Origin: Amylibacter sp.
GTDB taxonomy: Bacteria; Pseudomonadota; Alphaproteobacteria; Rhodobacterales; Rhodobacteraceae
Direction of reading: 5' to 3'
NCBI GenBank assembly: GCA_027083485.1
Contig: JALWOO010000676.1
Span: 1-14,401 of the forward strand
Length of the DNA: 14,401 bases
Made by a program: the position numbers and the translations under genes
The notes under the pieces: model-generated
Seen by the model: the letters and a program-made list of their open reading frames with translations, nothing else
Database searches by the model: none
Told to the model about the DNA's origin: nothing
Shown: piece after piece, positions 1,211 through 14,401 of the stretch
Numbering within the stretch: position 1 is the first letter of the stretch
How the letters are laid out: every line of letters starts with the position of its first letter

Positions 1211-3889
1211 CTATACGACGATGTCACGCGGTGCGAAGGACATAGAACGGAACGAGCGTTTGTAAGGTGATTCACCAATTTTGGTGACCTTCGCGATGCC
1301 CATTTTGTAGTTGTAGTTCCCGCTGATCCAGTCGACGACCCGTCCGGCCAAAGCATTGGCTGGCTGGGACGCATGCAGGAAGTCCATATACATGACCCCC
1401 GGCTTGACCGCCCGTGTCACTATGGCGACCGCTGTTACAGCTGCTTCTGTAAACTCCACATTTCCGTTGGCCAACTGACCCGAGAAAGAATAATCGGACC
1501 CTTCAACCCCCAAGGTGGTGTCTTTCAGGCCAGGTACCCGATCGTTGGACAACAGGACCATATCACCGCTTTCGATACCGCGTTTGGCTGCATCTTCTTC
1601 GTTGATTTCAACCCAGTTGGCAGGCCAACGCTGCACGATGTAGGGACGACGGGTATCGTCGAAACCGGACTGCCAGCGTTCATTGGCACGACCCGAAGTA
1701 CACCACAGCTCATCACCCTTCGGTTTCATCCATTCCCAATAGTCAGAGAACAGTGACCATGGTGATTTCTGGATGTTACACTTACCGGTCTGGCTGTTGA
1801 AATGGGTGATCTTCTTGTTGAACATGTTCAACGCGGTTGGCCCGTTTTCCGGCAGCTTTTTGGTGGTGTCATGCAGGCGGACAGAACCTTCCAGCGTGCC
1901 ATCATCATGCATGTAAACCGGTCCCTGAATACCATTGGTCCCCATTTCGCGGAACTTCTGGTGCAGGGTCTTGCCCTCGCGGTGCGCAGCAACTTTGACC
2001 ATGTTAAAGTCTTTGCGGCTACCCCGGGTGAACTTGGCGGCTTCTTCTGCCACATCGTTCGAATTTTCCCAGTCAAAGCCTTCAAAGCCCATTTTCTTGG
2101 CCAGCTGCGAAATGATCCACCAATCAGGTTTCGCCTCGCCCGGTGCATCATAGAATTTTTGATACAGACGGATGCGGCGTTCACCATTGGCCCGCAGGAA
2201 GTCTTCTTCGCCCCATGTTGCGGCAGGGAAGATAATATCCGCGAACTGGTTGCCGATCGGGTCAATCAGATAGATGTCCTGATTGACCAGCACCATGCCG
2301 CCACTATCCACACGCGCCTTGAGCGTTTCGAGAATTTTCTCGCGGTTGATGGATCGGACCTGATGCGGGTTGCCGCGGGTCAGTTCGTGGAAACGGGCGG
2401 ACAGTTGTTGCGAGCCGAGCATGGACTGGATCCACGTTGTCCCGATCACATGCGCCATACGGGTGTGGCCCGCCATGGTGTAGGTATCGGTATCAAGCGC
2501 GCGACGGCGACGACCTGGCAGTTTTTGTGGCGATTTGTTGCGCGGATACCCGCCACCACCGACACCACCACGCTGGTGACCACCGGCACGGCCGATCATC
2601 TGACCCGGACGCCCACCGGCCCCAACGATAATACCCAAGGCAGAAATCGCCTGTGTGTTACCGGTGTTGTTGGACCAATAGAAGCCCTTCTCGATCATGA
2701 TCGAGGTTTTGGGCCGCTTGCCGTCCTCTTTGGGTTTGGCCATCATCTCGGCAGCGAGCTGGATTTTCGCAGCGTCCACACCGGAAACTTCGGCAGCATT
2801 TTCGAGCGTGAACTCGTCTTGTGCCAACAGCCATTTGGCCCAGTCGTCAAACCCTTTGGTCTGGAATTTGCCCCAGGTTGTACGCCACTGCCAAGGGGTG
2901 TTCCGTGTCCCCTGACCAAAGCCGGAGCTGGATCCCCATTTGTCGTTAACCCAGTTCTTGATCCATTCTTTGTCCTGCCAACCATTTTCAACAATGATCC
3001 GCGCGATAGCGTTCACGACCAACAGATCGGTCCCCGGATTCACATCCAGCCACAGGCCGCCATTTTGTTCGGCAAAGGCAACACCGGCAGTTTTGCGAGG
3101 CACCATAAAGATGGCTTTCTGGCCCCCTTGAATTGCCGGCATGATCCACTGCGTAAACAGAATGGTTTTGGTTTCATAAGGGTCTGTACCGCAGATCAGC
3201 AGCGTTTCCGCATCATGCCAATCCTGATAGGACGCCCCGAAGTTATCAAAACCGGCATCCCGGAAACCCGGTGTCGAAGATACGTTCGACGGGGTATCGT
3301 GGAAGGTAAAGTTGGCGGTATTGATCGAACGCAAAGCGTATTTGGTGATCGCATAGGTGTTCTCGATATACTGATACGAGTAGGTTTTCACACCATAGGC
3401 ATTGGTCCCGTGCTTCTTGATAACGTATTTCGCCATCTCGGCTGCGATATCCAGCGCAAAGTCCCATGTCACCGGCTGCAACATACCGTAGATCCGCATC
3501 ATTGGATGCTTCAGACGATCGCGGGTCGGTTTTTCCGGGTTATAACACTTCTGCGCGATACAGCCACCACGCAAGGAACTGTCACCATTGACGTTAACCG
3601 CATGCGCATCTTTGTCAGGAATGATGACAACATGGTGTGGTTCGCCCTTGTGCAGCACGATATTGTGCTGGTTCGGGGCAACCCATGGGCCAAGAGTTTC
3701 GACCGGAAAATCCGCATTGAACGCATTTTCACTGGCAGCCGTGCCACCGGTTTTCCCGCCTTTAACAGGCCAGCGGTAAACCTTGTAGCCACAGGCAACG
3801 ATGCAGTAATCACAAGCAGTAGTGATGACTTCCGCATCCTTTGGCGGCAGGGGGACGTTTTCATCCGGAATATAATATGGAGTAGACAT
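1211..3889 (-). CDS. idrA: Iodate reductase catalytic molybdopterin subunit IdrA (arsenite-oxidase-like)
   Basis: This 892-aa protein is a DMSO-reductase-superfamily molybdoenzyme of the AioA/IdrA branch, and would be the catalytic subunit reducing iodate in the periplasm. The N-terminal cluster motif is C26-x2-C29-x3-C33. At the fourth-ligand position stands GDSSLRGG (about 102-109) with Ser and no Cys, the arrangement that gives a [3Fe-4S] cluster in AioA. The C-terminal cofactor-binding domain is seen from about 728 (TSGRANERW) to 860. Compared with AioA from memory, the Arg-x3-His of its active site is kept (R434-AGG-H438), but the segment carrying its substrate-binding His195 is not (about 200-220). 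A Gly- and Arg-rich stretch follows at 439-463. There is no signal peptide, so export probably depends on the Tat signal of IdrB. A strong GGAGG lies before the ATG, and idrB ends 11 nt upstream. The two neighbouring di-heme peroxidase genes favour IdrA over arsenite oxidase. Confidence 0.85.
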   Translation of the reverse strand: MSTPYYIPDENVPLPPKDAEVITTACDYCIVACGYKVYRWPVKGGKTGGTAASENAFNADFPVETLGPWVAPNQHNIVLHKGEPHHVVIIPDKDAHAVNVNGDSSLRGGCIAQKCYNPEKPTRDRLKHPMMRIYGMLQPVTWDFALDIAAEMAKYVIKKHGTNAYGVKTYSYQYIENTYAITKYALRSINTANFTFHDTPSNVSSTPGFRDAGFDNFGASYQDWHDAETLLICGTDPYETKTILFTQWIMPAIQGGQKAIFMVPRKTAGVAFAEQNGGLWLDVNPGTDLLVVNAIARIIVENGWQDKEWIKNWVNDKWGSSSGFGQGTRNTPWQWRTTWGKFQTKGFDDWAKWLLAQDEFTLENAAEVSGVDAAKIQLAAEMMAKPKEDGKRPKTSIMIEKGFYWSNNTGNTQAISALGIIVGAGGRPGQMIGRAGGHQRGGVGGGGYPRNKSPQKLPGRRRRALDTDTYTMAGHTRMAHVIGTTWIQSMLGSQQLSARFHELTRGNPHQVRSINREKILETLKARVDSGGMVLVNQDIYLIDPIGNQFADIIFPAATWGEEDFLRANGERRIRLYQKFYDAPGEAKPDWWIISQLAKKMGFEGFDWENSNDVAEEAAKFTRGSRKDFNMVKVAAHREGKTLHQKFREMGTNGIQGPVYMHDDGTLEGSVRLHDTTKKLPENGPTALNMFNKKITHFNSQTGKCNIQKSPWSLFSDYWEWMKPKGDELWCTSGRANERWQSGFDDTRRPYIVQRWPANWVEINEEDAAKRGIESGDMVLLSNDRVPGLKDTTLGVEGSDYSFSGQLANGNVEFTEAAVTAVAIVTRAVKPGVMYMDFLHASQPANALAGRVVDWISGNYNYKMGIAKVTKIGESPYKRSFRSMSFAPRDIVV

Positions 3890-3900
3890 GTTTTTCCTCC

Positions 3901-4485
3901 CTAACCGTGCAGGTTATCTTTGCGGCCATAAATCAGGCCAAAAATGCCGGTGGCGTATACGTCGTCACCATCAACTTCCAACAGGATCTGCGGCAGGCTT
4001 TGGTAGGCCTGGCCGGAAATCAGAATCCCGTGGCGAGTCAAATCATAAGTAGACAGGTGCAGCGGGCATGCGCCCAATGACTTGGTGTCTTTCTTATAGC
4101 TGCCATCAAGTGATCCGCCCTGGTGGGTACAGGCGTAGTTGAACGCAACCACATCCTGTTCCGCGCCAACACCACCGCCGGCTTTTACGCCCAGTTTCAC
4201 GATCATGTTGTCGGAATATTCACCTTCGTCGGGATAGCTGAAATCAAACGGCTCATCCTGTTTCAGGCTTGACAGTTTGGTAATGAACTTACGCGGATAT
4301 TCGGTGATTTGCGCAGGAACCTGTTCGGCCTCTGCGGTGCCCGCATTCAGCGTAATCATGATGGTTGTCGTCGCACCGGCCGTACCAATCAGGAAGTTGC
4401 GACGAGAAACCAGACACTTGTGCCCGACCTTCTTTGCAATCTCCTTACGGGCCATGCCGTCTGCGTTTTTTGCTTCGTTAGTCAT
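3901..4485 (-). CDS. idrB: Iodate reductase Rieske [2Fe-2S] subunit IdrB, Tat-exported
   Basis: This 194-aa Rieske protein is the small electron-transfer subunit that partners the molybdoenzyme. A Tat signal with twin Arg (SRRNFLIG, R28-R29) and a hydrophobic stretch follows a rather long polar N-terminus, and cleavage is plausible near residues 50-54. The cluster ligands are C119-T-H121 and C140-P-L-H143, a complete Rieske set with an 18-residue spacer. Length and layout match AioB/IdrB. It should carry the folded IdrA with it through the Tat system, because IdrA lacks a signal. It sits 20 nt after the upstream peroxidase gene and 11 nt before idrA, with a good GGAAAGGA ribosome-binding site, so it belongs to the four-gene operon. 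In the reaction it would pass electrons from a c-type cytochrome to the IdrA iron-sulfur cluster. Confidence 0.87.
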   Translation of the reverse strand: MTNEAKNADGMARKEIAKKVGHKCLVSRRNFLIGTAGATTTIMITLNAGTAEAEQVPAQITEYPRKFITKLSSLKQDEPFDFSYPDEGEYSDNMIVKLGVKAGGGVGAEQDVVAFNYACTHQGGSLDGSYKKDTKSLGACPLHLSTYDLTRHGILISGQAYQSLPQILLEVDGDDVYATGIFGLIYGRKDNLHG

Positions 4486-4505
4486 TGTTAATCCTTTCCT
4501 GACGC

Positions 4506-5657
4506 TTACTCGGAAGCCAGCGCTTCGTAGGGTGGCAATACAGGGGGTTCGACACGCAGCTCATCGCCACTAAAGGCTTCGAGGAAGGAGACCAGTTGCG
4601 CCACTTCTTCGTCGTTCAAACCCAGAGGTTTCAGCTTGCTTGTTTTTGTCGATGCCATTGTGCCATCGGTGAAATCGTTCTCGCCACCACCGGCGTTATA
4701 GAACTGCACAACCTCTTCCAGATCCCAGAAGGCACCATTGTGCATGTAAGGGGCGGTGTAGAGTGTGTAGCGCAGAGGCGGTGTGCGGAACTTGCCCATG
4801 TCTGCTTTTTCCTTGGTGCGGAAATACAGGCCCGGATCGTCCTTCAGCTCGCGGTACATATCCTGAGTCACGCCTTTTGCATAAATCTCGTAGCGGAAAG
4901 TTACCTGTGCAAGGCCGTCTTCTTCCCAACGTTCTGCGGGCGGAACACCAAGATTATAGTAGTTCTCGTCCGTTGCCTGCGCGCCGTTGTGGCATTGAAT
5001 ACAACCGGCTTTGCCGTTGAACAGTTCCATACCTGCAACCTGATCTTCGGTCAGGGCGGATTTGTCACCGGCCAGATATCTGTCAACCGGCGTATCATTC
5101 ACAATCAAGGTGCGTTCAAAGGCGGCAATCGCTCTCCAAGCATCCCCGATCAGCGGATATTCGGTGCCGAACACCTCGTTGAACCGTTTGCGATATTCCG
5201 GAATGAACGCCAGACGGGTTTCCATCACGTCGTTTTCACCATTTCCGGCAACCGCCCCTTTGGCAGCACTCGGAGCCTGTTTTTCAAGCGATGCAGCTGC
5301 ACCGGCCCAGAACAACTGACCCAGATAGGCCGAGTTGATAACCGACTGTGAATTGCGCCAGTGAACCGTGCCCGGATAGCCGCGAGACAGGCTGTCGCCA
5401 AAAGCCCAACCCTGATCCGGTTCGTGACATGTCACACAAGCTGTAGAAGCATCGCCACCGACACGGGGATCCCAAAACAGGATTTTGCCCAACTCGACCT
5501 TGGCGTCCGTCTGCTTGTTATCCAGTGGAATCGGAGGATCACCCAAAGGAGCCAAAGGGGCGTATTTACCCATTTCTCCGGCATTAACCATCGCAGCAGA
5601 CAGTGCAACCGCCGCAGCACCGGCCATGAGAAGGAAAGTATTTTTTACGTTTTTCAT
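4506..5657 (-). CDS. idrP1: Di-heme cytochrome c peroxidase-family protein (IdrP1-like)
   Basis: A 383-aa periplasmic di-heme protein of the bacterial cytochrome c peroxidase/MauG family, with a Sec signal peptide (residues 1-26). It has two c-heme motifs, C74-VT-C77-H78 and C219-IQ-C222-H223, and the family's TAPYMHNGAF segment with M305. Where peroxidases usually read W-D-G-R after the first heme, this protein reads LFWAGA (115-120). The usual NPxEM acid motif is blurred (NDVMETRL, 142-149), so the peroxidatic centre may differ from the norm. In iodate-reducing bacteria two such proteins are encoded with IdrAB and are proposed to remove peroxide formed at the Mo site. The gap to the upstream paralog is 15 nt and to idrB 20 nt. 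Assignment as P1 and not P2 is only by adjacency to idrB and could be swapped. Confidence 0.78.
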   Translation of the reverse strand: MKNVKNTFLLMAGAAAVALSAAMVNAGEMGKYAPLAPLGDPPIPLDNKQTDAKVELGKILFWDPRVGGDASTACVTCHEPDQGWAFGDSLSRGYPGTVHWRNSQSVINSAYLGQLFWAGAAASLEKQAPSAAKGAVAGNGENDVMETRLAFIPEYRKRFNEVFGTEYPLIGDAWRAIAAFERTLIVNDTPVDRYLAGDKSALTEDQVAGMELFNGKAGCIQCHNGAQATDENYYNLGVPPAERWEEDGLAQVTFRYEIYAKGVTQDMYRELKDDPGLYFRTKEKADMGKFRTPPLRYTLYTAPYMHNGAFWDLEEVVQFYNAGGGENDFTDGTMASTKTSKLKPLGLNDEEVAQLVSFLEAFSGDELRVEPPVLPPYEALASE

Positions 5658-5672
5658 GATTTCTCTCCGGTC

Positions 5673-6794
5673 CTAGTTCTGAACTTCGCGCCAATTTTCG
5701 ATGGCGGGATAGTTGGTTGAAATTGGACCTTCCCAAACATATTCGGGACCGGTCAGCGGATCACCAGACAAGGCCTCAAGGAAAGCAACAATGTCTTTTT
5801 GCTCGGCAAAGGTCAGGCCCAGAGGCTTGATCCGTTCGTCCTTGTTGGCATCTTCGCCACCACCGGCATTGTAGAAGGCAACCACTTCAAACAGCGTGTC
5901 GAAAGTACCGTTATGCATGTAGGGTGCGGTGTACTTCAGCTCGCGCAGCGTTGGTGTGTTGAACTTGCCGATATCGCTGCCGTCGGCAGGATGGCGGATG
6001 ATCTGCGCCCCCACATCACGGCGCACGTTCATGTAGTTTTCGACACCCATGAAGCTGGCAAATGCGGCATAGGTCATGTGGCGCATCGGGTCTGACCAGA
6101 TTTCCGGATTTTCAGCCACGCCAATATTATAAACTTTGTCGTCGGTCAGACGCGGGCCGTTATGGCAACTGGAACAACCGGCTTTGCCTTCGAACAGTTC
6201 CTGACCGCGCTTGGCAGCATCGGACATGGAGCCTGTATCAAATGGGGCACCTTTGGAGATCAGCGTCTTCAGGTATTCCGGGATCGCCTTGCGAACAGAC
6301 CCGTTTGAAGGTTCGCCATAACCGGCAGCCTTGAACATTTCGACGTAAATCGGATCCTGCTTGACCCGTTCCTGCATCAGGCGCATGTCCATGTTCATGC
6401 TGTAATCTTCGGTGATACTTTCGCGGGTCACGTCGTTCAGATTTGTGCCTATGCGGCCATCATGGAACCAGTTTTCCGCCAGTGCCGTATTGATCAGGGT
6501 TGGCGTATTTCGAAACCCTTTGGAACCGGGATAGGCCATCGACAAAGGCAGACCATCGGCGAAACCCTTTTCAGGTTGGTGACAGGTTGCACAGGAAATA
6601 GCCGCATCCCCTGACAGGCGTTTGTCAAAGAACAGACGCTTGCCCAGCTCTGCTTTCGCCGCATTGACTTCTGGTCCTACGACAGGTCCCAGCGCCATTT
6701 CATCCGCCATTACCGGCCCGGCCAAGACGGTCGCGCTTAGCAGCGCAGCCCCTACCGTCAGCGCCGATCCGCGTTTGAATCGAGACATCTTCAT
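5673..6794 (-). CDS. idrP2: Di-heme cytochrome c peroxidase-family protein (IdrP2-like), first gene of idr operon
   Basis: A 373-aa paralog of the next gene, with a Sec signal (1-30, ending GPVMA). Its c-heme sites are C68-AT-C71-H72 and C207-SS-C210-H211, and TAPYMHNGTF supplies M293. It keeps the family's W/F-x-D-G-R element (NWFHDGR, 108-114) that the downstream paralog has lost, but the region of the catalytic Glu reads ITEDYSMNM (127-135), with Ser where NPxEM has Glu (alignment from memory). It is the first gene of the idr unit: a perfect FNR-type box lies about 109 nt upstream of the ATG, and a GAAAGGGA ribosome-binding site precedes it. Its probable role, as in described idr clusters, is detoxification of peroxide or reactive by-products of iodate reduction, possibly drawing electrons from the same cytochromes. 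Which copy is P1 and which P2 is uncertain. Confidence 0.78.
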   Translation of the reverse strand: MKMSRFKRGSALTVGAALLSATVLAGPVMADEMALGPVVGPEVNAAKAELGKRLFFDKRLSGDAAISCATCHQPEKGFADGLPLSMAYPGSKGFRNTPTLINTALAENWFHDGRIGTNLNDVTRESITEDYSMNMDMRLMQERVKQDPIYVEMFKAAGYGEPSNGSVRKAIPEYLKTLISKGAPFDTGSMSDAAKRGQELFEGKAGCSSCHNGPRLTDDKVYNIGVAENPEIWSDPMRHMTYAAFASFMGVENYMNVRRDVGAQIIRHPADGSDIGKFNTPTLRELKYTAPYMHNGTFDTLFEVVAFYNAGGGEDANKDERIKPLGLTFAEQKDIVAFLEALSGDPLTGPEYVWEGPISTNYPAIENWREVQN

Positions 6795-6896: not shown

Positions 6897-6910
6897 TTGA
6901 TGGCTATCAA
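6897..6910. promoter_or_regulatory. Perfect FNR/Anr-type box upstream of the idr operon
   Basis: TTGAT-GGCT-ATCAA matches the FNR consensus TTGAT-N4-ATCAA at all ten conserved positions. Its centre is about 109 nt upstream of the first idr gene and no other gene starts in this interval, so it most likely activates idr transcription under low oxygen. I could not pick a convincing -10 at the distance expected for a site at -41.5; a GATTAT on the minus strand (6856-6861) is the best nearby candidate. Confidence 0.8.
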
Positions 6911-7022: not shown

Positions 7023-7913
7023 TTACTTCTGGGCAGCACCCTGTGGCCCTGAAGACAGACCGGTGAACATCTCTTTCAGGCGGGTAAAGAACCCTTCACC
7101 CGAACCGCCGTTTTTGGTCTTCTTCCGGATGTCCTTCATTTGCCCCTCAAACGCTTCAAAGGCCTCTGCCGTGTCATACTCCAGCGCCTTGCCAAGGGCG
7201 ATCTCGGCATCCAGCCCATCCAGCAATTTTGCCAATCGTGCGTTTTCTTTGTCTGTGCGGTCTGCTTTTTCGCTCAGCTTGGCCGCTTCTGTAATCAGCA
7301 CAGCCGCCCGTAACATTGGCAAAGGCTGGACCTCTTGCAGCACCACAAGTGTTGCCAACGCATTGCCCAGAACCGCCTCGGCGTCCTTGACCTTGTCATC
7401 CTTGATCAACGCCGCTGCGGATTTCAGAGCCAGCGGATAGGTGCCCAAAGGAATATAGGTCACATCAATATCCACTTCGCTGGCCAAAGGCGTAATCAAC
7501 ATTCGTGCCTTTTGGAGCTGGTGGTCTTTCATCAAACGCAATGCCGCACGTTTGGTCGTATTGATTTGATCCGGTGTTAGAGCGGTGTCCAGTACAGTTG
7601 TTTTCACATCAACAGGCACCAGCGCCAGATCTGGGTTGTGAGTCAGCGTGACTTCCAGCTTGCCAACAGCACGTTCAATCGCGGCGATGGCCTCGTCATT
7701 CTTTTTGTCAGCCAGCGCTTTGATCGCCGCATCCGTTTCCTTGAGCGCCTGAAGCGCGTCTTCCATTACCTGCGTCGCCCCATCGCGCGCAGTGGTTTCC
7801 GCAGCCTGATTGGCCGCAGATTTCGTAGTTGTTTCCTCTGCCAGTGCCGGAACCATGGCAAAGCCGGCCATTGACAGAGCCAGTACAGTATTTTTCCAAT
7901 TCAACATTTTCAA
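7023..7913 (-). CDS. YfdX family periplasmic protein
   Basis: A 296-aa exported protein. A Sec signal peptide occupies residues 1-25 (cleavage after VPALA). The mature part is almost wholly alpha-helical and charged. It has the features I associate with the YfdX family: an N-terminal helical region of 'AL..A..AI..L..KK..EA..AIE.A.GKL' type (about 50-95) and a central I-P-L-G-T-Y-P-L-A-L element (about 155-165). The C-terminus adds a Gly-rich linker and a short amphipathic tail (about 265-296). The family has no established enzymatic role; the E. coli member has been studied as a periplasmic chaperone-like, acid-stress-linked protein. It lies between the CydA-like operon and the idr operon with its own terminator, so it may be a separate transcript. 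A stabilising role for the neighbouring periplasmic redox proteins is only a guess. The ribosome-binding site is GAAAGGA. Confidence 0.75.
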   Translation of the reverse strand: MKMLNWKNTVLALSMAGFAMVPALAEETTTKSAANQAAETTARDGATQVMEDALQALKETDAAIKALADKKNDEAIAAIERAVGKLEVTLTHNPDLALVPVDVKTTVLDTALTPDQINTTKRAALRLMKDHQLQKARMLITPLASEVDIDVTYIPLGTYPLALKSAAALIKDDKVKDAEAVLGNALATLVVLQEVQPLPMLRAAVLITEAAKLSEKADRTDKENARLAKLLDGLDAEIALGKALEYDTAEAFEAFEGQMKDIRKKTKNGGSGEGFFTRLKEMFTGLSSGPQGAAQK

Positions 7914-8093: not shown

Positions 8094-10364
8094 TTACACG
8101 TTGTTATACCGCCGCCGTGCTGCAATCGCGATGCCGATGAACAACAGGCCTGCCAGTGCTGCCGCTGCCGCTGCAATCGCCATGATCCGGTTGGGGTTTT
8201 CTTCCGGCTCCAGCAGCACCCAATACCACGCGGTAAAGGCCTGGCGCAGCCCTTCTTCGCCATTCAACCCATCCCAATCGGCAAAAGCAATCGGGGTGTA
8301 AACGCCTTCCTCGAATTGCAAATCCTCGGCAGTATCGGTTTTCAGCGACCGCTTGAACACCACGCGCCATTGGCCGTCTTTCCAGACCCCATTGGCCGCC
8401 AATGCGGAACTGTCGGCGCGGGGTTTGGGCGGCTTAGCCTGACCCTTGGCATCGCGTATTTCCACAATTGCGGGGGCCGCGAGATCCTCTGACGGAGCCG
8501 CCCAATACCACAGGTTTACCGGATTCTTTTTGTCGCCAAGCCGGAAATACGGTTTTTCATTGGTGCCGCTTAGCGCAGCCGGGAATTGCAGGGCAACCGC
8601 ATCACGCGTGGGGTCCACCCCCTCCAGACGATAGGCCTTTTCCAGATCGGAGCCGGGAACCGAATAGGTACGGTCATCCATATCCACACGGAATGCAATA
8701 TCCCGATCATTATACAGCACCCGCACAGTGACCATGTCATTCAGGGAGGTAAACAAGCGCGGCTCCTTGATAATATTCGGTGCCATAGCAAAGGTCATTG
8801 GCGGGGCTGTATTCCAGATTTCATCGGCGGGATCGTCGGGCAAATCACCATCCACCCGCAAACCACGGATCACGGAGTCGCCCTCGGTCAACGGGGTCGC
8901 GCTATCGCGCAGGGTCATCACATAATTGGCAATCGCCCAACGGTCCTCAAGGCTCATAGTGCTGGTGTGTTCCGGCATCGGCGTGCCCGGAATACCGGCG
9001 CTCAGACGTTGAAACACATCCGCCGCGGTTTTGGTCCAGCGCCATGTTTCAGGACGGGTCAGGTTGCGCGGCCAGATACGGGCCTGCGCATCGTCCTTGA
9101 GCCGTTTGCCCGAGGTGATATTGCCCCGTCCCGCCTCGCCGTGACATTGCACACAGGCCTTCACAAACTGTTCCCGCCCCAAGGCCAGCAATTCCGGTGT
9201 TACCTCTTTTGGCGGTGTGCCCATTTCGATCGGCGTCAGATCCTCCGGATCTTCTTCTTCCCAACCGCCAAACTCCTTGATCAACTGGATCAGGCCGGTG
9301 ACTTCGGCATCAGACAGCAGGGTTTTCCACGCCGGCATAGCGGTGCCGGGCAGGCCCTCCATGATGGTGCGGCGCAAATCTTCGTCAGTGGGAAATTCGC
9401 TATCTGCATCGGTGGTTTTATATTTGAACAAACCAAGGGTGAAATCACGCGGGGCCGGATACATACGATCCGCCACGACACCAAGCCCGTCGCCTTCTTC
9501 GCCATGACACTGCGAACAGCGTTTCATGTAAACGGCCTCGATCGCATCCGCATCAAGGGGGGCATTCGGGTCAACCGGCGCGGTTTCCGGTTCTTTCGGT
9601 TTGTCTTCCAGCTCCCAGCTGCGTGGCTCATATCCGGTATAGTCATAGAGGAAGGAAATGATTTTCCAGACGTCGTCCTCTTGCAACATTTCCTCCCAGA
9701 CCGGCATGGCCGACGCCCAAGGCGTGCCCTCGCGCGGCAGGCCCGGCCCGCCTTTGGTGATCCGCCAGAACAAGAACGCCTCTTGCAGCTGGGCGATCAT
9801 GCCCACATCCTGAAAATTGATCGGACGAGGGGTGAATGTCTTGGCAAAATGGCCGGTACCGTCCAGCAAATCGCCATGGCAGAACACGCAGTTTTTGTAA
9901 TACAGTTCTGCCCCTTCGGCGACGATTTCCTTGTATTCATCAGAGGCTTCGTCAAACTCTTCGCGATAAGGGTTTTGCAGTTTCAGCAGATCATAAGTCT
10001 TGCCATAAGCCTTGAGGCTGGAAGGCGGGGCTGGATGCACCGTGCGCAATTCAACGGGCGACACGATCTTGGGCTTCACGGCGTTAAAGGTCAGGTATCC
10101 GACACCGGCCACCACACCCACAAAGGCAACAACCCGCAACAGCATCAGGCTTGGTGCCCCGAACAACGCCAGCAAAGGCGCAAAAAAGCGGGCCGCCGTT
10201 TTGTTGTCAAACGTTACCACCAACAGCACGGCGACCGAACAGATCGACATATACCAGATCAACAAAGCCTGCGGGATCGGCGGGTTCAGCACATAGGCGA
10301 ACACAGTGTACAGACCGCCCAGAACAATGGCAGACCACAACAGAGGGTGTTTTAAAAGTGACAT
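8094..10364 (-). CDS. Membrane tri-heme cytochrome c fused to ethylbenzene-dehydrogenase-gamma-like heme domain
   Basis: A 756-aa multidomain electron-transfer protein. In order: about three N-terminal membrane spans (8-27, 32-52, 62-94); three cytochrome c domains with C159-VF-C162-H163, C283-SQ-C286-H287 and C404-VQ-C407-H408; an EB_dh-like domain (about 500-720) whose late segment PIAFADWDGLNGEEGLRQ (691-708) followed by AWYWVLL is typical of the heme-b-binding gamma subunits of ethylbenzene dehydrogenase and chlorate reductase relatives; and a C-terminal span (727-749) ending in RRRY. The hemes would face the periplasm. Each c domain has a plausible distal Met (e.g. SAMPVW, TAMPAW, TPMPEH). 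It is the last gene of the operon, 6 nt after the tri-heme cytochrome. Likely role: to pass electrons between the CydA-like membrane partner and soluble periplasmic acceptors such as IdrB; the direction is unknown. Confidence 0.82.
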   Translation of the reverse strand: MSLLKHPLLWSAIVLGGLYTVFAYVLNPPIPQALLIWYMSICSVAVLLVVTFDNKTAARFFAPLLALFGAPSLMLLRVVAFVGVVAGVGYLTFNAVKPKIVSPVELRTVHPAPPSSLKAYGKTYDLLKLQNPYREEFDEASDEYKEIVAEGAELYYKNCVFCHGDLLDGTGHFAKTFTPRPINFQDVGMIAQLQEAFLFWRITKGGPGLPREGTPWASAMPVWEEMLQEDDVWKIISFLYDYTGYEPRSWELEDKPKEPETAPVDPNAPLDADAIEAVYMKRCSQCHGEEGDGLGVVADRMYPAPRDFTLGLFKYKTTDADSEFPTDEDLRRTIMEGLPGTAMPAWKTLLSDAEVTGLIQLIKEFGGWEEEDPEDLTPIEMGTPPKEVTPELLALGREQFVKACVQCHGEAGRGNITSGKRLKDDAQARIWPRNLTRPETWRWTKTAADVFQRLSAGIPGTPMPEHTSTMSLEDRWAIANYVMTLRDSATPLTEGDSVIRGLRVDGDLPDDPADEIWNTAPPMTFAMAPNIIKEPRLFTSLNDMVTVRVLYNDRDIAFRVDMDDRTYSVPGSDLEKAYRLEGVDPTRDAVALQFPAALSGTNEKPYFRLGDKKNPVNLWYWAAPSEDLAAPAIVEIRDAKGQAKPPKPRADSSALAANGVWKDGQWRVVFKRSLKTDTAEDLQFEEGVYTPIAFADWDGLNGEEGLRQAFTAWYWVLLEPEENPNRIMAIAAAAAALAGLLFIGIAIAARRRYNNV

Positions 10365-10370
10365 TATTCC

Positions 10371-11507
10371 CTACTCCGGCAGGTTCATCAGGTAATCAAG
10401 AAGCAGCGTCATTTCGCTGTCGGCGATGGTATCGCCAAAATCATCCGGCATCAGGTCCGGCTCAAAGCCCTCAGCAATACTCGCATTCGGATCGGTAATC
10501 GCGGTTTGCAATTCTTCGCGGCTCATGCGCTTGGCAATGCCTTGCAGGCGCGGGCCAACGTCGGCTCCGGAATCGTCCAGATCGTGGCAGCCGGCACAAC
10601 CGAACTTGTCGATCACCTCAAGCCCCGACGTAGCCAGCGGCTCTTCCTCGTCGACTTCCTCTTTGGGGGCCGCTTCCGGCAAGGCCAGCAGGTAATCCAC
10701 AATCAGCAGCAATTCGGAGGTGTGCATTTCCTCGGAGAAATCTTGCGGCATCAGGCCGGCGCTAAACCCTTCGGCAATAGTGGCGTTCGGGTCAAGAATG
10801 GCTTCCATGACCTCTGCACGGCTCATGCGGTTGGCAATGCCGCCCAATTCCGGCCCCAGATCCGCTCCGCTGCCCTTCAGGTTATGACAGGCGGCACAAT
10901 TGTATTTATCAATCGCGGCCAATGCATCTGTAACGGGGGCCTCGACCATCCCTTCGGCAGATGGCGTCTCGGCAACCGGGGCTTCATCCGCACTGGGCAG
11001 GGGAACGGTCGGCTCCAGCCCTGCACGGTCCTGAAGGAAGGCGATCACCGCATTCATTTCAACGTTTGACAGCTCGATCGGAGCCTTATCGACCACCGGC
11101 ATCGGCGATTCCGTATCGTTGGTACCCTTTTTCCCGAACCCGGCAACCACATAGGCAGACGGGTGTTGCATGGATTCCCGAATATAGGCCTCGATGGCCT
11201 CCGGCCCCGATTTACCCGCTGATACGCCGGTATATTTTGGATCGGCCAAACGGGAAGGGAATGTTGCGGCAAGATCCATCTCAAGCATGTCAGGGGCACG
11301 CCCCATGCCGTTATGGCAGAGCGTACAGGTTCCCTTGCCGGTGAACAGGGATTCGCCCAGCGCGATCATTCCCTCCATATCCAGACCATCGGTTGACACC
11401 TCGACAGGTTCTGACAGGTCCGGCTCCACTTGCGGCAAAGTATGGGCAAACAGGGCATAAAACCCCAATAATACCGTGCTAAACACGATTACTCTGAGGA
11501 AAGTCAT
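10371..11507 (-). CDS. Tri-heme cytochrome c with duplicated C-terminal domain
   Basis: A 378-aa periplasmic cytochrome, probably held in the membrane by an uncleaved N-terminal helix (3-22). It has three heme motifs: C61-TL-C64-H65, C204-AA-C207-H208 and C304-AG-C307-H308. The first domain (about 45-165) is larger and has SPMPVV as likely Met ligand. Domains two (about 198-278) and three (about 297-378) are close tandem copies, sharing the order ID-KY/F-CxxCH-SGAD-GP-GIA-RMSR-DPNA-IAEGF-LMP-DF-LPE, joined by an acidic Pro-rich linker (279-291). A Pro/Ala-rich linker also joins domain one to two. The ATG overlaps the stop of the CydA-like gene (ATGA), so the two are translationally coupled and probably made in fixed ratio. 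It is likely the c-heme subunit of the CydA-like complex. Confidence 0.85.
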   Translation of the reverse strand: MTFLRVIVFSTVLLGFYALFAHTLPQVEPDLSEPVEVSTDGLDMEGMIALGESLFTGKGTCTLCHNGMGRAPDMLEMDLAATFPSRLADPKYTGVSAGKSGPEAIEAYIRESMQHPSAYVVAGFGKKGTNDTESPMPVVDKAPIELSNVEMNAVIAFLQDRAGLEPTVPLPSADEAPVAETPSAEGMVEAPVTDALAAIDKYNCAACHNLKGSGADLGPELGGIANRMSRAEVMEAILDPNATIAEGFSAGLMPQDFSEEMHTSELLLIVDYLLALPEAAPKEEVDEEEPLATSGLEVIDKFGCAGCHDLDDSGADVGPRLQGIAKRMSREELQTAITDPNASIAEGFEPDLMPDDFGDTIADSEMTLLLDYLMNLPE

Positions 11508-13261
11508 GCTGAACCCTCCGTGCCTTTCTGCTTGGTTTGTCCAAGTCTCGACAGCCAGAAAACGAAAACCATAACGGCCATAAACAACAACGTAACCGCA
11601 GTAATCACGTTGCCTGCATCGCCGACTGTCGGAATATAGGCGTCCACCGAGTTATCCTTCATGATCGTGTAGATATGCCAGTTGGTTCGCAGGCTGGAGC
11701 GGATATACCCCATCAGCCCCATCAGCCATGTAAAAGCCACCGGCAGCACGAACAGCGCATATTGCGACCGTTCTGTCATACGGCCCCAGTGGACCTTTTC
11801 CGAAATCGACCCGCGCAGCATGAACACATCAATGATAACCGATCCGATGATAATGGTCAGCGTGCTGACCACCTGCGGCACCGAGGCCCCGACCTTGTAA
11901 ACAGTCGGGGTGATATAGCCGTAAATGCCCGCCCCGACGATATTGGCTATCCCGATCACATAAAGCGCGACCACAACCATATTGGCACTGCCCGCCCAAG
12001 CCACCACCGGCACACGGGAAGAACGATAGAACATCTGGAACGACATAAAGGTAAACACCAGCATCAGGTTCACTGCCGTATTTTTAGCAGGCATAATGCC
12101 AAGCGGCCCCAGCAACTTATGATGGGTGCCGCCAAGGTTCTGAATTTCCGCCGTTGACAGGATCAACGTGTGCGGCGTGACCCAAACGAGGAACCCCCCG
12201 ACAATCACCACCGCGATATATTTCACGTATTTTGCATACTGCGCCCCGCGATCCGTACGCATCAGGCCGGACCACAGGTAATAATTCGCGGCCAGCATGA
12301 TCGTCCCGATCAACACCGCCTGAATGATAAACAGCCATGCCAGAATCCCGCCCATGGCGGTAATCCCCATCTGTTGGGAATAGGCGTAAATTTCGGCCAT
12401 CAGCCAGTATCCGGCAAAAGGCAACGGGATAAATCCGACAATGGCGATAAAATTGGATGTATACCCCATCCAGTCATAATGCGCCTTTTTGGCGGGGTCT
12501 TTCTCGGCCAGAAACATATAGGCGGAATAGCCCCCGACGATTGCGCCGCCATAAGCGATATTGGCAAGGAAGCGGTGCAGGTTCAGCGGATTCCACAGCG
12601 GGTTGCGGGTGGCCTCCCATACCGTGCCGGTAATGGCTCCACTGGGATCAATCCCGGCAGGCGACATCATAAAACTGGTCCAGGCATTGGCCACAAACAT
12701 CAGCGTCAGGCCAACCGTGTTCAACAACAACCCAATTGACATGTGGTAATACTTGCGGTTGCCCCGCCGCAACGCATCCCATGAGTAAAAATAGATATAC
12801 AGCGTGACCGATTCCAAACCGAACAACGCCGCATAGATCAGCATCTGCCCACGAAAGACCTTGATCATATAGCCCATCAACTGCGGATAAAACACCAGCA
12901 GCACCAACAGCAAACCACCCCCGACAAGGGCGGTCAGCGAATAGGCAGCCATGGTGATTTTCATGAACTCTCTGGCCATATTGTCAAAGCGGTCATCGCC
13001 GGTGACAACGCTCATAAATTCGGTGGCAATTGCAAACAGCGGCACCGCCAACACAAAAGCCGCCAGAAACAGATGCATTTGCGCCATCACCCAAGCCAAT
13101 GTGCGCGCATTGATACCGGCAATCACCGGATAATCCATCCGCGAGGGCTTGGGCGCACCTTCCAGCACTTGTGCAACCTCTTTAGTCGCAGCCAGCAACA
13201 GATCCGGGGCAATCAGGGCAGTCAAAGCCGCCATAATCGCAAACAGGGTCGAAAGTTTCAT
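11504..13261 (-). CDS. Cytochrome bd oxidase subunit I (CydA)-like polytopic membrane protein, divergent
   Basis: A 585-aa protein with about 13 membrane spans after a signal-like first helix. CydA likeness: TLAWVMAQMHLFLAAF (about 54-69, H63 at the place of CydA His19), GLESVTLYIYFYSWDAL (148-164), VANAWTSFMMSPAG (190-203), and MGYIRSS...WHIY (517-531), comparable to CydA's MGRxPWxVY. Aligned from memory, CydA His186 falls on Ala233, Glu445 on Leu516, and the GRxPW motif is absent. This fits the bd-like proteins outside the quinol-oxidase group that work with c-type cytochromes. No CydB is encoded nearby. Start choice: AGAGGG, which overlaps the previous stop, lies 7 nt before the ATG at 13261 but only 1 nt before the ATG at 13267, so 13261 is preferred. 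The stop overlaps the next start (ATGA). Whether it reduces oxygen, oxidises quinol or only relays electrons is not decidable here. Confidence 0.72.
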   Translation of the reverse strand: MKLSTLFAIMAALTALIAPDLLLAATKEVAQVLEGAPKPSRMDYPVIAGINARTLAWVMAQMHLFLAAFVLAVPLFAIATEFMSVVTGDDRFDNMAREFMKITMAAYSLTALVGGGLLLVLLVFYPQLMGYMIKVFRGQMLIYAALFGLESVTLYIYFYSWDALRRGNRKYYHMSIGLLLNTVGLTLMFVANAWTSFMMSPAGIDPSGAITGTVWEATRNPLWNPLNLHRFLANIAYGGAIVGGYSAYMFLAEKDPAKKAHYDWMGYTSNFIAIVGFIPLPFAGYWLMAEIYAYSQQMGITAMGGILAWLFIIQAVLIGTIMLAANYYLWSGLMRTDRGAQYAKYVKYIAVVIVGGFLVWVTPHTLILSTAEIQNLGGTHHKLLGPLGIMPAKNTAVNLMLVFTFMSFQMFYRSSRVPVVAWAGSANMVVVALYVIGIANIVGAGIYGYITPTVYKVGASVPQVVSTLTIIIGSVIIDVFMLRGSISEKVHWGRMTERSQYALFVLPVAFTWLMGLMGYIRSSLRTNWHIYTIMKDNSVDAYIPTVGDAGNVITAVTLLFMAVMVFVFWLSRLGQTKQKGTEGSA

Positions 13262-13272
13262 GTTCATACCCT

Positions 13273-13398
13273 CTATAGCGGCATCAAATCAGCACCCACA
13301 GGCAGGCCCTGCGAGAACATGATTGATCTATCCATGAAGTAGAAAAAAGCAGCCCAGACAACCAGAGCAACCACGAATACCAACAGCTTCTTAACCAT
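13273..13398 (-). CDS. 41-aa single-span membrane peptide (second of two)
   Basis: A small frame starts at an ATG 6 nt after GAGGGG and ends with a TAG that itself forms part of the ribosome-binding site of the CydA-like gene. The peptide begins MVKKLLVFVVALVVWAAFFY, giving one membrane helix (about 5-22) with Lys3-Lys4 on the presumed cytoplasmic side, then a short polar tail (MDRSIMFSQGLPVGADLMPL). In size and topology it resembles small oxidase subunits of the CydX/CydS kind, but I see no sequence motif that proves kinship. Close spacing on both sides (17 nt after the first small gene, start of the CydA-like gene 5 to 11 nt beyond) supports a real, co-translated gene. Confidence 0.7.
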   Translation of the reverse strand: MVKKLLVFVVALVVWAAFFYFMDRSIMFSQGLPVGADLMPL

Positions 13399-13415
13399 CT
13401 GCAGCCCCTCTATCG

Positions 13416-13541
13416 TTAATGGTGAATGGAAATTACGCCGTGATCATAGATCAGCAGCCACCAGAAAAAGATCCCCATCGCCACGGCGGTTGCGGTAAAA
13501 ACCAGCTTCCCCAGCAAGGTATTTTCAGTATTTTTTGCCAT
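13416..13541 (-). CDS. 41-aa single-span membrane peptide (first gene of CydA-like operon)
   Basis: ATG at 13541 is preceded by AAGGAGCAGGA and followed by 41 codons to TAA. The peptide has a short polar N-terminus (MAKNTENTLLGK), one hydrophobic helix (about residues 13-33, including MGIFFWWLLIY), and a C-terminal tail with three His residues (DHGVISIHH). It is the promoter-proximal gene, starting about 65 nt downstream of the perfect FNR-type box. It is likely a small structural subunit or assembly factor of the membrane complex; the His-rich tail could bind a metal or heme, which is speculation. I do not recognise the family. Confidence 0.7.
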   Translation of the reverse strand: MAKNTENTLLGKLVFTATAVAMGIFFWWLLIYDHGVISIHH

Positions 13542-13605: not shown

Positions 13606-13619
13606 TTGATGGCCATCAA
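13606..13619. promoter_or_regulatory. Perfect FNR/Anr-type box upstream of the CydA-like operon
   Basis: TTGAT-GGCC-ATCAA matches the FNR consensus at all ten conserved positions. The centre is about 71 nt upstream of the first small-peptide start codon. For a class II site at -41.5, transcription would start near 13571, leaving a leader of about 30 nt. It lies in the 97-nt gap between the 100-aa gene and the operon. The same site class occurs before the idr operon, so both units are probably in one low-oxygen regulon. Confidence 0.82.
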
Positions 13620-13638: not shown

Positions 13639-13941
13639 TCAGAAGGCAACTCCGCAGGCTTCTGAAATCCGCTGGCGCAAACGATCCATGTAGTGATCTA
13701 TCTGTTCGCCTTCTTCTTGGGGAATCAGAAAAATAAGCTTGGCCGCCACAATATAGGGGCGCTTTTTCTTGCCGTCCCCCGGCGCATCCGTTGTCAGGAT
13801 TTCCTCAACAATCATGGTGGTTTGCAACGGGTTTTTGCAATAGCGCGGCAAAGCGGCATTGTTTGCATACCAATCCGCACTGTTGAAAATAAACAGCATC
13901 ACGCCCGCTGTCAGAGCAAAAACAATCAGGATTCGGTGCAT
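13639..13941 (-). CDS. Hypothetical 100-aa exported or membrane-anchored protein
   Basis: I do not recognise this family. The 100-aa product starts with a hydrophobic helix (about residues 4-20, MHRILIVFALTAGVMLFIF), probably an uncleaved anchor or signal. The periplasmic part has two Cys residues (C35 in LPRYCKNPL, C96 in SEACGVAF), a Lys-rich turn (about 58-61) and an amphipathic helix near the end (about 78-95). One possibility is a disulfide between the two Cys residues. The ribosome-binding site is weak (GCGAGTCACCG), so the start is less certain than for neighbours. It runs the same way as the CydA-like operon, but the FNR box lies after its stop, so it is probably transcribed separately, from the region facing the divergent regulator. 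Confidence 0.6.
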   Translation of the reverse strand: MHRILIVFALTAGVMLFIFNSADWYANNAALPRYCKNPLQTTMIVEEILTTDAPGDGKKKRPYIVAAKLIFLIPQEEGEQIDHYMDRLRQRISEACGVAF

Positions 13942-14221: not shown

Positions 14222-14401
14222 ATGACCCAACGGCCAGCCAAAAAATGCCTGCACTGCTCCATGTATCAAAAAACCGGGAATTTCTGTAACCACCTCACCA
14301 GTTCGGAACTGGAAAGCCTCAGCACCAAATCCCGCACCGCCACCCTGAAACGTGGCGAGGCCATCAACAGCGCGGATTTGCTGACCTGGCCAGTTGTGGC
14401 A
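14222..14401 (+). CDS. Crp/Fnr-family transcriptional regulator, N-terminal part (cut by window end)
   Basis: Sixty codons are present and the frame is open at the window end. The N-terminus carries a Cys cluster, C9-LH-C12-x9-C22, followed by L-x3-EL-x2-L (25-32) and L-KRGEAI (46-52), the layout of the start of the Crp/Fnr sensor domain. The Cys pattern suggests an oxygen- or redox-sensing iron-sulfur member, although its spacing differs from the classical FNR pattern I recall and the fourth Cys would lie outside the window. AGGATCGAACAGGA precedes the ATG. It is divergent to the respiratory locus and is an obvious candidate to act on the three FNR-type boxes downstream, which is inference. 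The DNA-binding domain is not in the window. Confidence 0.75.
   Translation, partial: MTQRPAKKCLHCSMYQKTGNFCNHLTSSELESLSTKSRTATLKRGEAINSADLLTWPVVA

Follow-up and report, generated by a model that had tools for sequence, protein, structure and literature searches.

In Nitrospira, a cluster of bd-like_3, an alternative NxrC_2, and two cytochromes c, duplicated nearby, is described in passages of PMC6606698, which also report its conservation in Nitrospina and anammox bacteria. A bd-like protein with 14 helices, three of them replacing the Q loop, is presented in the available part of PMC3578206, where its function is called enigmatic; both sources, in the same parts, place a bd-like_3-type cluster with NXR in nitrite oxidizers and also in anaerobic anammox bacteria. 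The CydAA' proteins of the OR-N family are treated as putative cytochrome c-oxidizing terminal oxidases in excerpts of two further papers (PMC10839748; PMC12342949). Here we describe a related set of five genes beside an iodate reductase (Idr) cluster in a 14,401-nucleotide stretch of DNA (contig JALWOO010000676.1; the window) from an Amylibacter sp. metagenome-assembled genome (MAG; 3.23 Mb, 854 contigs, 93% complete, 6% contamination). Judging from gene content and order, this set is a fused form of the cluster (bd-like_3, alternative NxrC, two cytochromes c) known from Nitrospira, Nitrospina, and anammox bacteria, and it is co-inherited with Idr. Its product may be a dedicated redox partner of periplasmic IdrAB that relays electrons, probably with a non-standard tetrapyrrole, a reading to which we give an even chance of being right. 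The tie of the bd-like gene set to iodate reductase is new relative to the open-licence PMC literature searched, in which we found no paper linking iodate with CydA or cytochrome bd, or a CydA-like protein with EB_dh in an iodate context.

The five genes, sP1-sP2-CydA-like-C3-EBc, are minus-strand open reading frames (ORFs) called in the window in a tight row from 13541 to 8094, with intergenic gaps of 17, 5, -4, and 6 bp in this order, and are likely co-transcribed. sP1 (13416..13541) and sP2 (13273..13398) are 41-aa peptides, each with one hydrophobic segment, carrying a WWLLIYxHGV-type and a QGLPV...LMP-type motif, respectively. The CydA-like core subunit (11504..13267; PF01654) is 587 aa long, with 14 membrane helices counted in the structure model. 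C3 (10371..11507) is a cytochrome c with an N-terminal hydrophobic segment and three CxxCH motifs, while EBc (8094..10364) combines N-terminal hydrophobic segments, three CxxCH domains, an EB_dh domain, and a C-terminal hydrophobic segment, as judged from Pfam and motifs. A preliminary description of the window had listed these same five genes, a CydA-like core without a CydB in the operon, a perfect FNR box before it, and an adjoining iodate reductase, and each of these was found in place (the box, TTGATGGCCATCAA, before sP1 at 13606..13619; IdrA/B/P1/P2 at 1211-6794). Its suggestion that the gene set is undescribed did not hold, in view of the gene order in Nitrospira-type genomes given below and of the bd-like_3 cluster in the available parts of PMC6606698 and PMC3578206. 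An assembly artefact was ruled out, as the same gene run is present in the single-contig genome of Profundibacter amoris, where orf100-sP1-sP2-CydA-C3-EBc-idrP2-P1-B-A-HEAT-CpdReg-FGE-type gene-USP/PCP_red-radical SAM-HemY-like follow one another uninterrupted.

In two Nitrospira-type genomes (G599 and G611, presumed to be Nitrospira from their phylum, four paralogues, and layout), the best match to the CydA-like protein (768 bits) lies in the order sP1-sP2-CydA-diheme c-monoheme c-diheme/EB_dh, and the other CydA paralogues score 647-655, 616-621, and 317-343 bits. The window shares with the Nitrospira bd-like_3/alternative NxrC_2 cluster (also in Nitrospina and Kuenenia) the small peptides, the 14-helix CydA-like core, the cytochrome c, the protein with cytochrome c and EB_dh parts, and their order. 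It differs in several respects: a single fused protein stands for the separate monoheme and diheme/EB_dh proteins, C3 carries one heme motif more, Idr is the molybdoenzyme next door, and Leu occupies the Met position of EB_dh. The third heme motif of C3 is best read as a local expansion, because most relatives carry two CxxCH motifs.

A scan of GTDB species genomes gave at least 542 relatives of the CydA-like protein, of which the best 80 loci were kept. Relatives of sP1 lie upstream of CydA in 67 of these 80 (HMM E <= 1), and also in the two Nitrospira-type loci, and relatives of sP2 near upstream in 64 of 80, both models having been built partly from the same loci. Two layouts were seen. The first has a single CydA-like gene, then C3, then the fused c/EB_dh gene (mostly ~720-880 aa). 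The second has two separate genes (~255 + 516 aa) in place of the fused one, and a paralogous CydA' (~720 aa), accompanied by cytochromes of its own, often lies ahead of the set. The idr genes lie beyond the fusion on the same strand in 18 of the 28 first-layout loci with at least 5 kb there. The flanks of the split-EB_dh loci alone are without idr, and we considered this layout unlinked to Idr; this was rejected, since whole-genome searches and further stretches place Idr just upstream, namely upstream of the CydA' gene in 10/10 second-layout genomes whose IdrA stretch was read, all chosen because IdrA had already been found in them.

The idr genes of the window lie downstream on the operon's strand (minus), in synteny, in the order idrP2-P1-B-A. 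They comprise idrP2 (5673..6794) and idrP1 (4506..5657), both MauG/CCP-type di-heme peroxidases by profile match, the Rieske subunit gene idrB (3901..4485; TIGR02694, 114 bits), and idrA for the molybdenum catalytic subunit (1211..3889; TIGR02693, 431 bits), whose product is 92% identical to the Profundibacter protein. The same order is found in the IdrABP1P2 clusters of Pseudomonas SCT and Denitromonas IR-12 and in an Azonexus plasmid cluster. In the last of these, idrA is followed by a gene for a small c-type cytochrome, and none of the 15 genes listed is bd-like. Poor conservation of the genes around idrABP1P2 is stated in the accessible text of PMC8692401.

The association of the two gene sets is not random. 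Among 394 genomes of the window's family, the CydA-like gene occurs in seven and IdrA (>=73% identity) in 18, and all seven CydA-like carriers (7/7) have IdrA, compared with 11/387 genomes without the complex (Fisher P 1e-10; this and the other co-occurrence P values ignore shared ancestry and island transfer). In the gammaproteobacterial order to which G531 (a Sedimenticola) belongs, 195 genomes were searched; the CydA-like gene was found in 32 (E <= 1e-50), IdrA in 36 (E <= 1e-100), and both in 29, that is, IdrA in 29/32 genomes with the complex vs 7/163 without (P 1e-24); the former ratio is 25/27 without the five genomes that had initially come in through CydA loci, and 19 of the 29 double carriers have both on one contig within 15 kb. 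The preliminary description had proposed a check of co-occurrence with idrA, and these two counts bear the link out. Behind other CydA-like loci, 38 of 50 genomes have IdrA (best match >=56% identity), which gives idr in 55/67 genomes examined behind the scan loci (17 adjacent + 38/50). Association by chance was rejected on these statistics, and a plasmid-borne module was rejected as well, no plasmid match to the CydA-like protein being found at E <= 1e-20.

Like the canonical cytochrome bd quinol oxidase CydAB(X), the CydA-like protein has the predicted CydA fold of the bd superfamily and keeps, in the alignment, the equivalents of H19, E107, and H186. Its sole Pfam match is PF01654 (45.2 bits; cut-off 26.2), and it had no NCBIfam match at E <= 0.01. 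Unlike CydAB(X), the complex of the window has no CydB, no recognizable Q loop, Ala at the position of E99, extra helices, and many c hemes. K252 and E257 of canonical CydA, which we take to be quinol-binding residues of the Q loop, are not kept, the profile alignment pairing them at its end with G301 and G306. After G306, the structure model has three helices (310-337, 339-362, and 392-416), which apparently replace the quinol loop. The C-terminal alignment in the E445/M393 region is weak (probability 17.6%). The equivalent of E99 is A146, invariant in 96 relatives. Two relatives of 738 aa (P0038 and P0040) join a cytochrome c domain and a CydA-like domain in one protein; a physical complex of the operon products would fit with such a single chain.

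The preliminary description had named a distant cydB partnering the CydA-like protein as one finding that would speak against it. PF01654 has two matches in the window's MAG, the CydA-like protein (59 bits) and a canonical CydA encoded on contig C664 (554 bits), and a cydB above the NCBIfam cut-off (183 vs 117 bits) does exist, but it follows that canonical cydA and was rejected as a partner on this ground. This separate cydAB could do the quinol-oxidase job, which we count in favor of a redox-partner role for the CydA-like complex.

The complex might instead be an oxygen reductase, that is, an OR-N-type terminal oxidase fed by cytochrome c rather than quinol, which removes O2 leaking in or formed from iodate, or serves micro-oxic respiration; we regard this as possible but rather doubtful. 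The bd superfamily fold and the core ligands agree with it, as does the treatment of the OR-N CydAA' proteins as terminal oxidases in excerpts of PMC10839748 and PMC12342949. Those proteins (Murali et al., 2021, via the same two partial sources) resemble ours in being CydA-like with c-type partners and no CydB in the cluster, and quinol residues are likewise not kept in the alignment; the likeness is one of description, not of clade placement. Three cultivated Nitrospirales are said, in a source available in part, to be without the additional oxygen reductases of others, O2 is an end product in the SCT iodate model as partially available, and control by FNR is generally known to fit micro-oxic oxidases too. 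The number of subunits speaks against it: the window's genome and the single-contig Profundibacter genome have one such CydA-like gene each, hence no CydAA' pair in either. Moreover, the best match in the two Nitrospira-type genomes is the paralogue beside EB_dh/c-heme proteins, not the presumed oxidase paralogue (616 and 621 bits), and the EB_dh/c-heme cluster is also reported, in partial sources, in anaerobic anammox bacteria. The E99 position does not discriminate here, since it is not Glu in any Nitrospirota paralogue examined.

A second perfect FNR box lies ~100 bp before idrP2 (6897..6910). Only 0.02 perfect boxes are expected per window, and two were seen in 0/200 shuffles. Profundibacter has boxes at the equivalent places (L120:5610, before sP1, and L120:11234, before idrP2). 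The boxes would place expression at low oxygen, which argues against an oxidative direction as in NXR, where iodide or another high-potential donor would feed the bd-like core and then O2 or a quinone. In favor of that direction, the available passages place a like-built complex alongside NXR, an oxidative enzyme, in nitrite oxidizers, IdrA scores above the arsenite oxidase family cut-off, and several carriers of the complex bear the names of lithotrophic genera. Iodate reduction was shown, however, for aerobic marine alphaproteobacteria carrying idr clusters (PMC11445184, in part), and in the window's family the idr clusters that lack the complex group as a clade next to the window's own, although the tested enzymes themselves were not placed. 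We therefore think an oxidative direction very improbable.

Judging from the parts shared by the NXR- and Idr-associated clusters, which suggest a membrane complex exchanging electrons with a periplasmic molybdoenzyme, the operon product would be an OR-N/bd-like membrane redox complex built like bd-like_3/alternative-NxrC, in which two tiny helices and c-heme arms reaching into the periplasm join a CydA-like core of 14 helices. Under oxygen limitation, via FNR, its six c hemes, in C3 and EBc, would relay electrons between a membrane pool, either quinol or a membrane cytochrome, and the periplasmic IdrAB with its peroxidases IdrP1P2. We favor this relay to IdrAB/IdrP1P2 at low oxygen because of the shared parts, because cytochrome c is the electron donor to Idr in published models (PMC8692401, as partially available), and because idrA of the Azonexus plasmid cluster is followed by a gene for a small cytochrome c. 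The preliminary description had likewise suggested that the module may donate electrons to IdrAB and does not look like a standard terminal oxidase, and we would still lean this way.

Several observations weigh against such a dedicated partner. Idr does not need the complex, because 11 of the 18 idrA-positive family genomes and a Vibrio plasmid have idr without it; a midpoint-rooted tree of 65 IdrA sequences, built by a quick method, unites these 11 in one clade within a larger clade holding the alphaproteobacterial CydA-positive ones. Conversely, the complex occurs without detected IdrA in 3/32 and 12/50 genomes, many of them MAGs. Every co-occurrence P value is inflated by common descent and by the spread of a single island, and perfect FNR boxes are upstream in only 7/74 relatives. 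Closely related complexes are regarded as terminal oxidases, and the protein retains the residues equivalent to H19, E107, and H186. On the side of the tetrapyrrole genes considered below, G087 (L122) and G564 (L275) have the USP-PCP_red/radical-SAM/HemY-like trio without a detected CydA-like gene, and G581 has the CydA-like gene without USP-PCP_red. Idr without the complex, and the 12/50 genomes with the complex and no detected IdrA, would also fit an accessory bystander on a mobile island shared with idr, serving other acceptors. We consider this unlikely, since one of the two gene orders recurs in loci named as alpha-, gamma-, and deltaproteobacteria at ~55-90% identity, and the FNR boxes are paired in two genomes.

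The EB_dh domain of EBc (71.0 bits; cut-off 33.3) matches the NXR-C chain 7b04_C and the EbdC chain 2ivf_C. Leu609 aligns with a Met of EbdC and NxrC that is presumably a heme ligand. At this position, the alignment has His in 32/37 first-layout proteins, Met in 20/28 second-layout proteins, and Arg in 18/21 proteins of the paralogous set. The EB_dh heme b of EBc is doubtful, because Leu609 replaces the presumed Met ligand. About six c hemes plus one EB_dh heme b had been expected in the preliminary description, and of these the six c-heme motifs are present, with the heme b count in doubt.

Three genes are among those recurring beside both layouts. USP-PCP_red joins a universal-stress protein to several copies of PCP_red, the domain at the C terminus of protochlorophyllide reductase subunit BchB; the radical-SAM protein, which also ends in PCP_red, most resembles NirJ2 (309 bits) and AhbD (298 bits), scores that in the window's genome stay below the cut-offs of 500; the HemY-like flavoprotein is above the protoporphyrinogen oxidase cut-off (252 vs 97.9 bits). 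They are consecutive on contig C20 of the window's genome, and the radical-SAM gene is present in G000 and G003 (Profundibacter), masked by over-long ORF calls. In the 394 family genomes, USP-PCP_red occurs in eight, the seven with the complex plus G087 (P 3e-14), and in 0/11 idrA-positive genomes without the complex; a close radical-SAM relative (>=56%) is in the same eight among 15 genomes searched. Among 99 Nitrospirota genomes, the CydA-like gene is in 32, USP-PCP_red in 32, and both in 31. In five of these examined, USP-PCP_red and the radical-SAM gene lie side by side, on another contig or >500 kb from the CydA cluster, and no HemY-like gene was seen, one of the stretches being only 4.8 kb; in G534, all three adjoin the CydA cluster.

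This co-occurrence suggests a dedicated tetrapyrrole for the complex, probably non-standard, which the three gene products would make or insert. No paper joining PCP_red with bd or radical SAM, or protochlorophyllide or universal stress protein with the Nitrospira bd-like proteins, was found in the open-licence PMC literature; the nearest is PMC8115632, whose available part covers both bd-like oxidases and universal stress proteins of Nitrospira marina but does not connect the two. More tentatively, there might be a second, membrane-wired iodate respiration, in which an OR-N bd-like complex with a new dedicated tetrapyrrole (from USP-PCP_red, the NirJ/AhbD-like radical SAM, and the HemY-like protein) conducts electrons to IdrAB, possibly conserving energy, the cofactor pathway serving OR-N complexes at large, including those of nitrite oxidizers. 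The orphan complex of nitrite oxidizers and anammox bacteria is now tied to a second periplasmic molybdoenzyme, so that its role becomes testable in the named and sequenced Profundibacter amoris instead of slow nitrifiers. It also offers a candidate electron path for iodate respiration, on which published models differ. Because these complexes and the tetrapyrrole genes co-occur so closely, an unusual heme is predicted for such complexes, and this can be tested directly by chemistry.

A ferrochelatase gene (PF00762; 337 bits in L031:7326-8429) was also seen upstream of the operon in several Rhodobacterales (L031, L034, L035, L120, and L127), in some of them beside a CRP-type regulator, as one more tetrapyrrole gene nearby. 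Directly upstream of the operon in the window is orf100 (13639..13941, minus strand), a small conserved ORF with relatives in 19/80 loci and no Pfam match. The plus-strand 5' end of a divergent gene (14222..14401), cut by the contig end, follows; its 60-aa piece has no Pfam match, but it probably encodes a CRP/FNR-type regulator from its position in relatives, the gene at the equivalent position in L033 carrying HTH_Crp_2. A sigma-54 response regulator and a PAS histidine kinase (k18 and k25) recur near these clusters (L074:251-3483, L190, and L119:2342-5445), as tested with Pfam in L074 and with weak scores in L119.

Between EBc and idrP2, the window has a YfdX-family gene (7023-7913, minus strand; PF10938, 104.6 bits), which is probably an insertion in the window's lineage because EBc and idrP2 are adjacent in Profundibacter (L120), with no YfdX gene between them. 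An SCO1/SenC-type gene is found at this place in several gammaproteobacteria (L067, L047, L059, L061, and L071; Pfam tested in L067). The HEAT-repeat gene (k3) follows idrA even without the bd-like complex (L201-L211), on which ground it was dropped as a candidate maturation gene, and may encode a general Idr-associated protein. Between CpdReg and USP-PCP_red, Profundibacter has an FGE-sulfatase (formylglycine-generating type) gene (L276:3755-4504), and an ORF of similar size occupies this place in G069 and G095.

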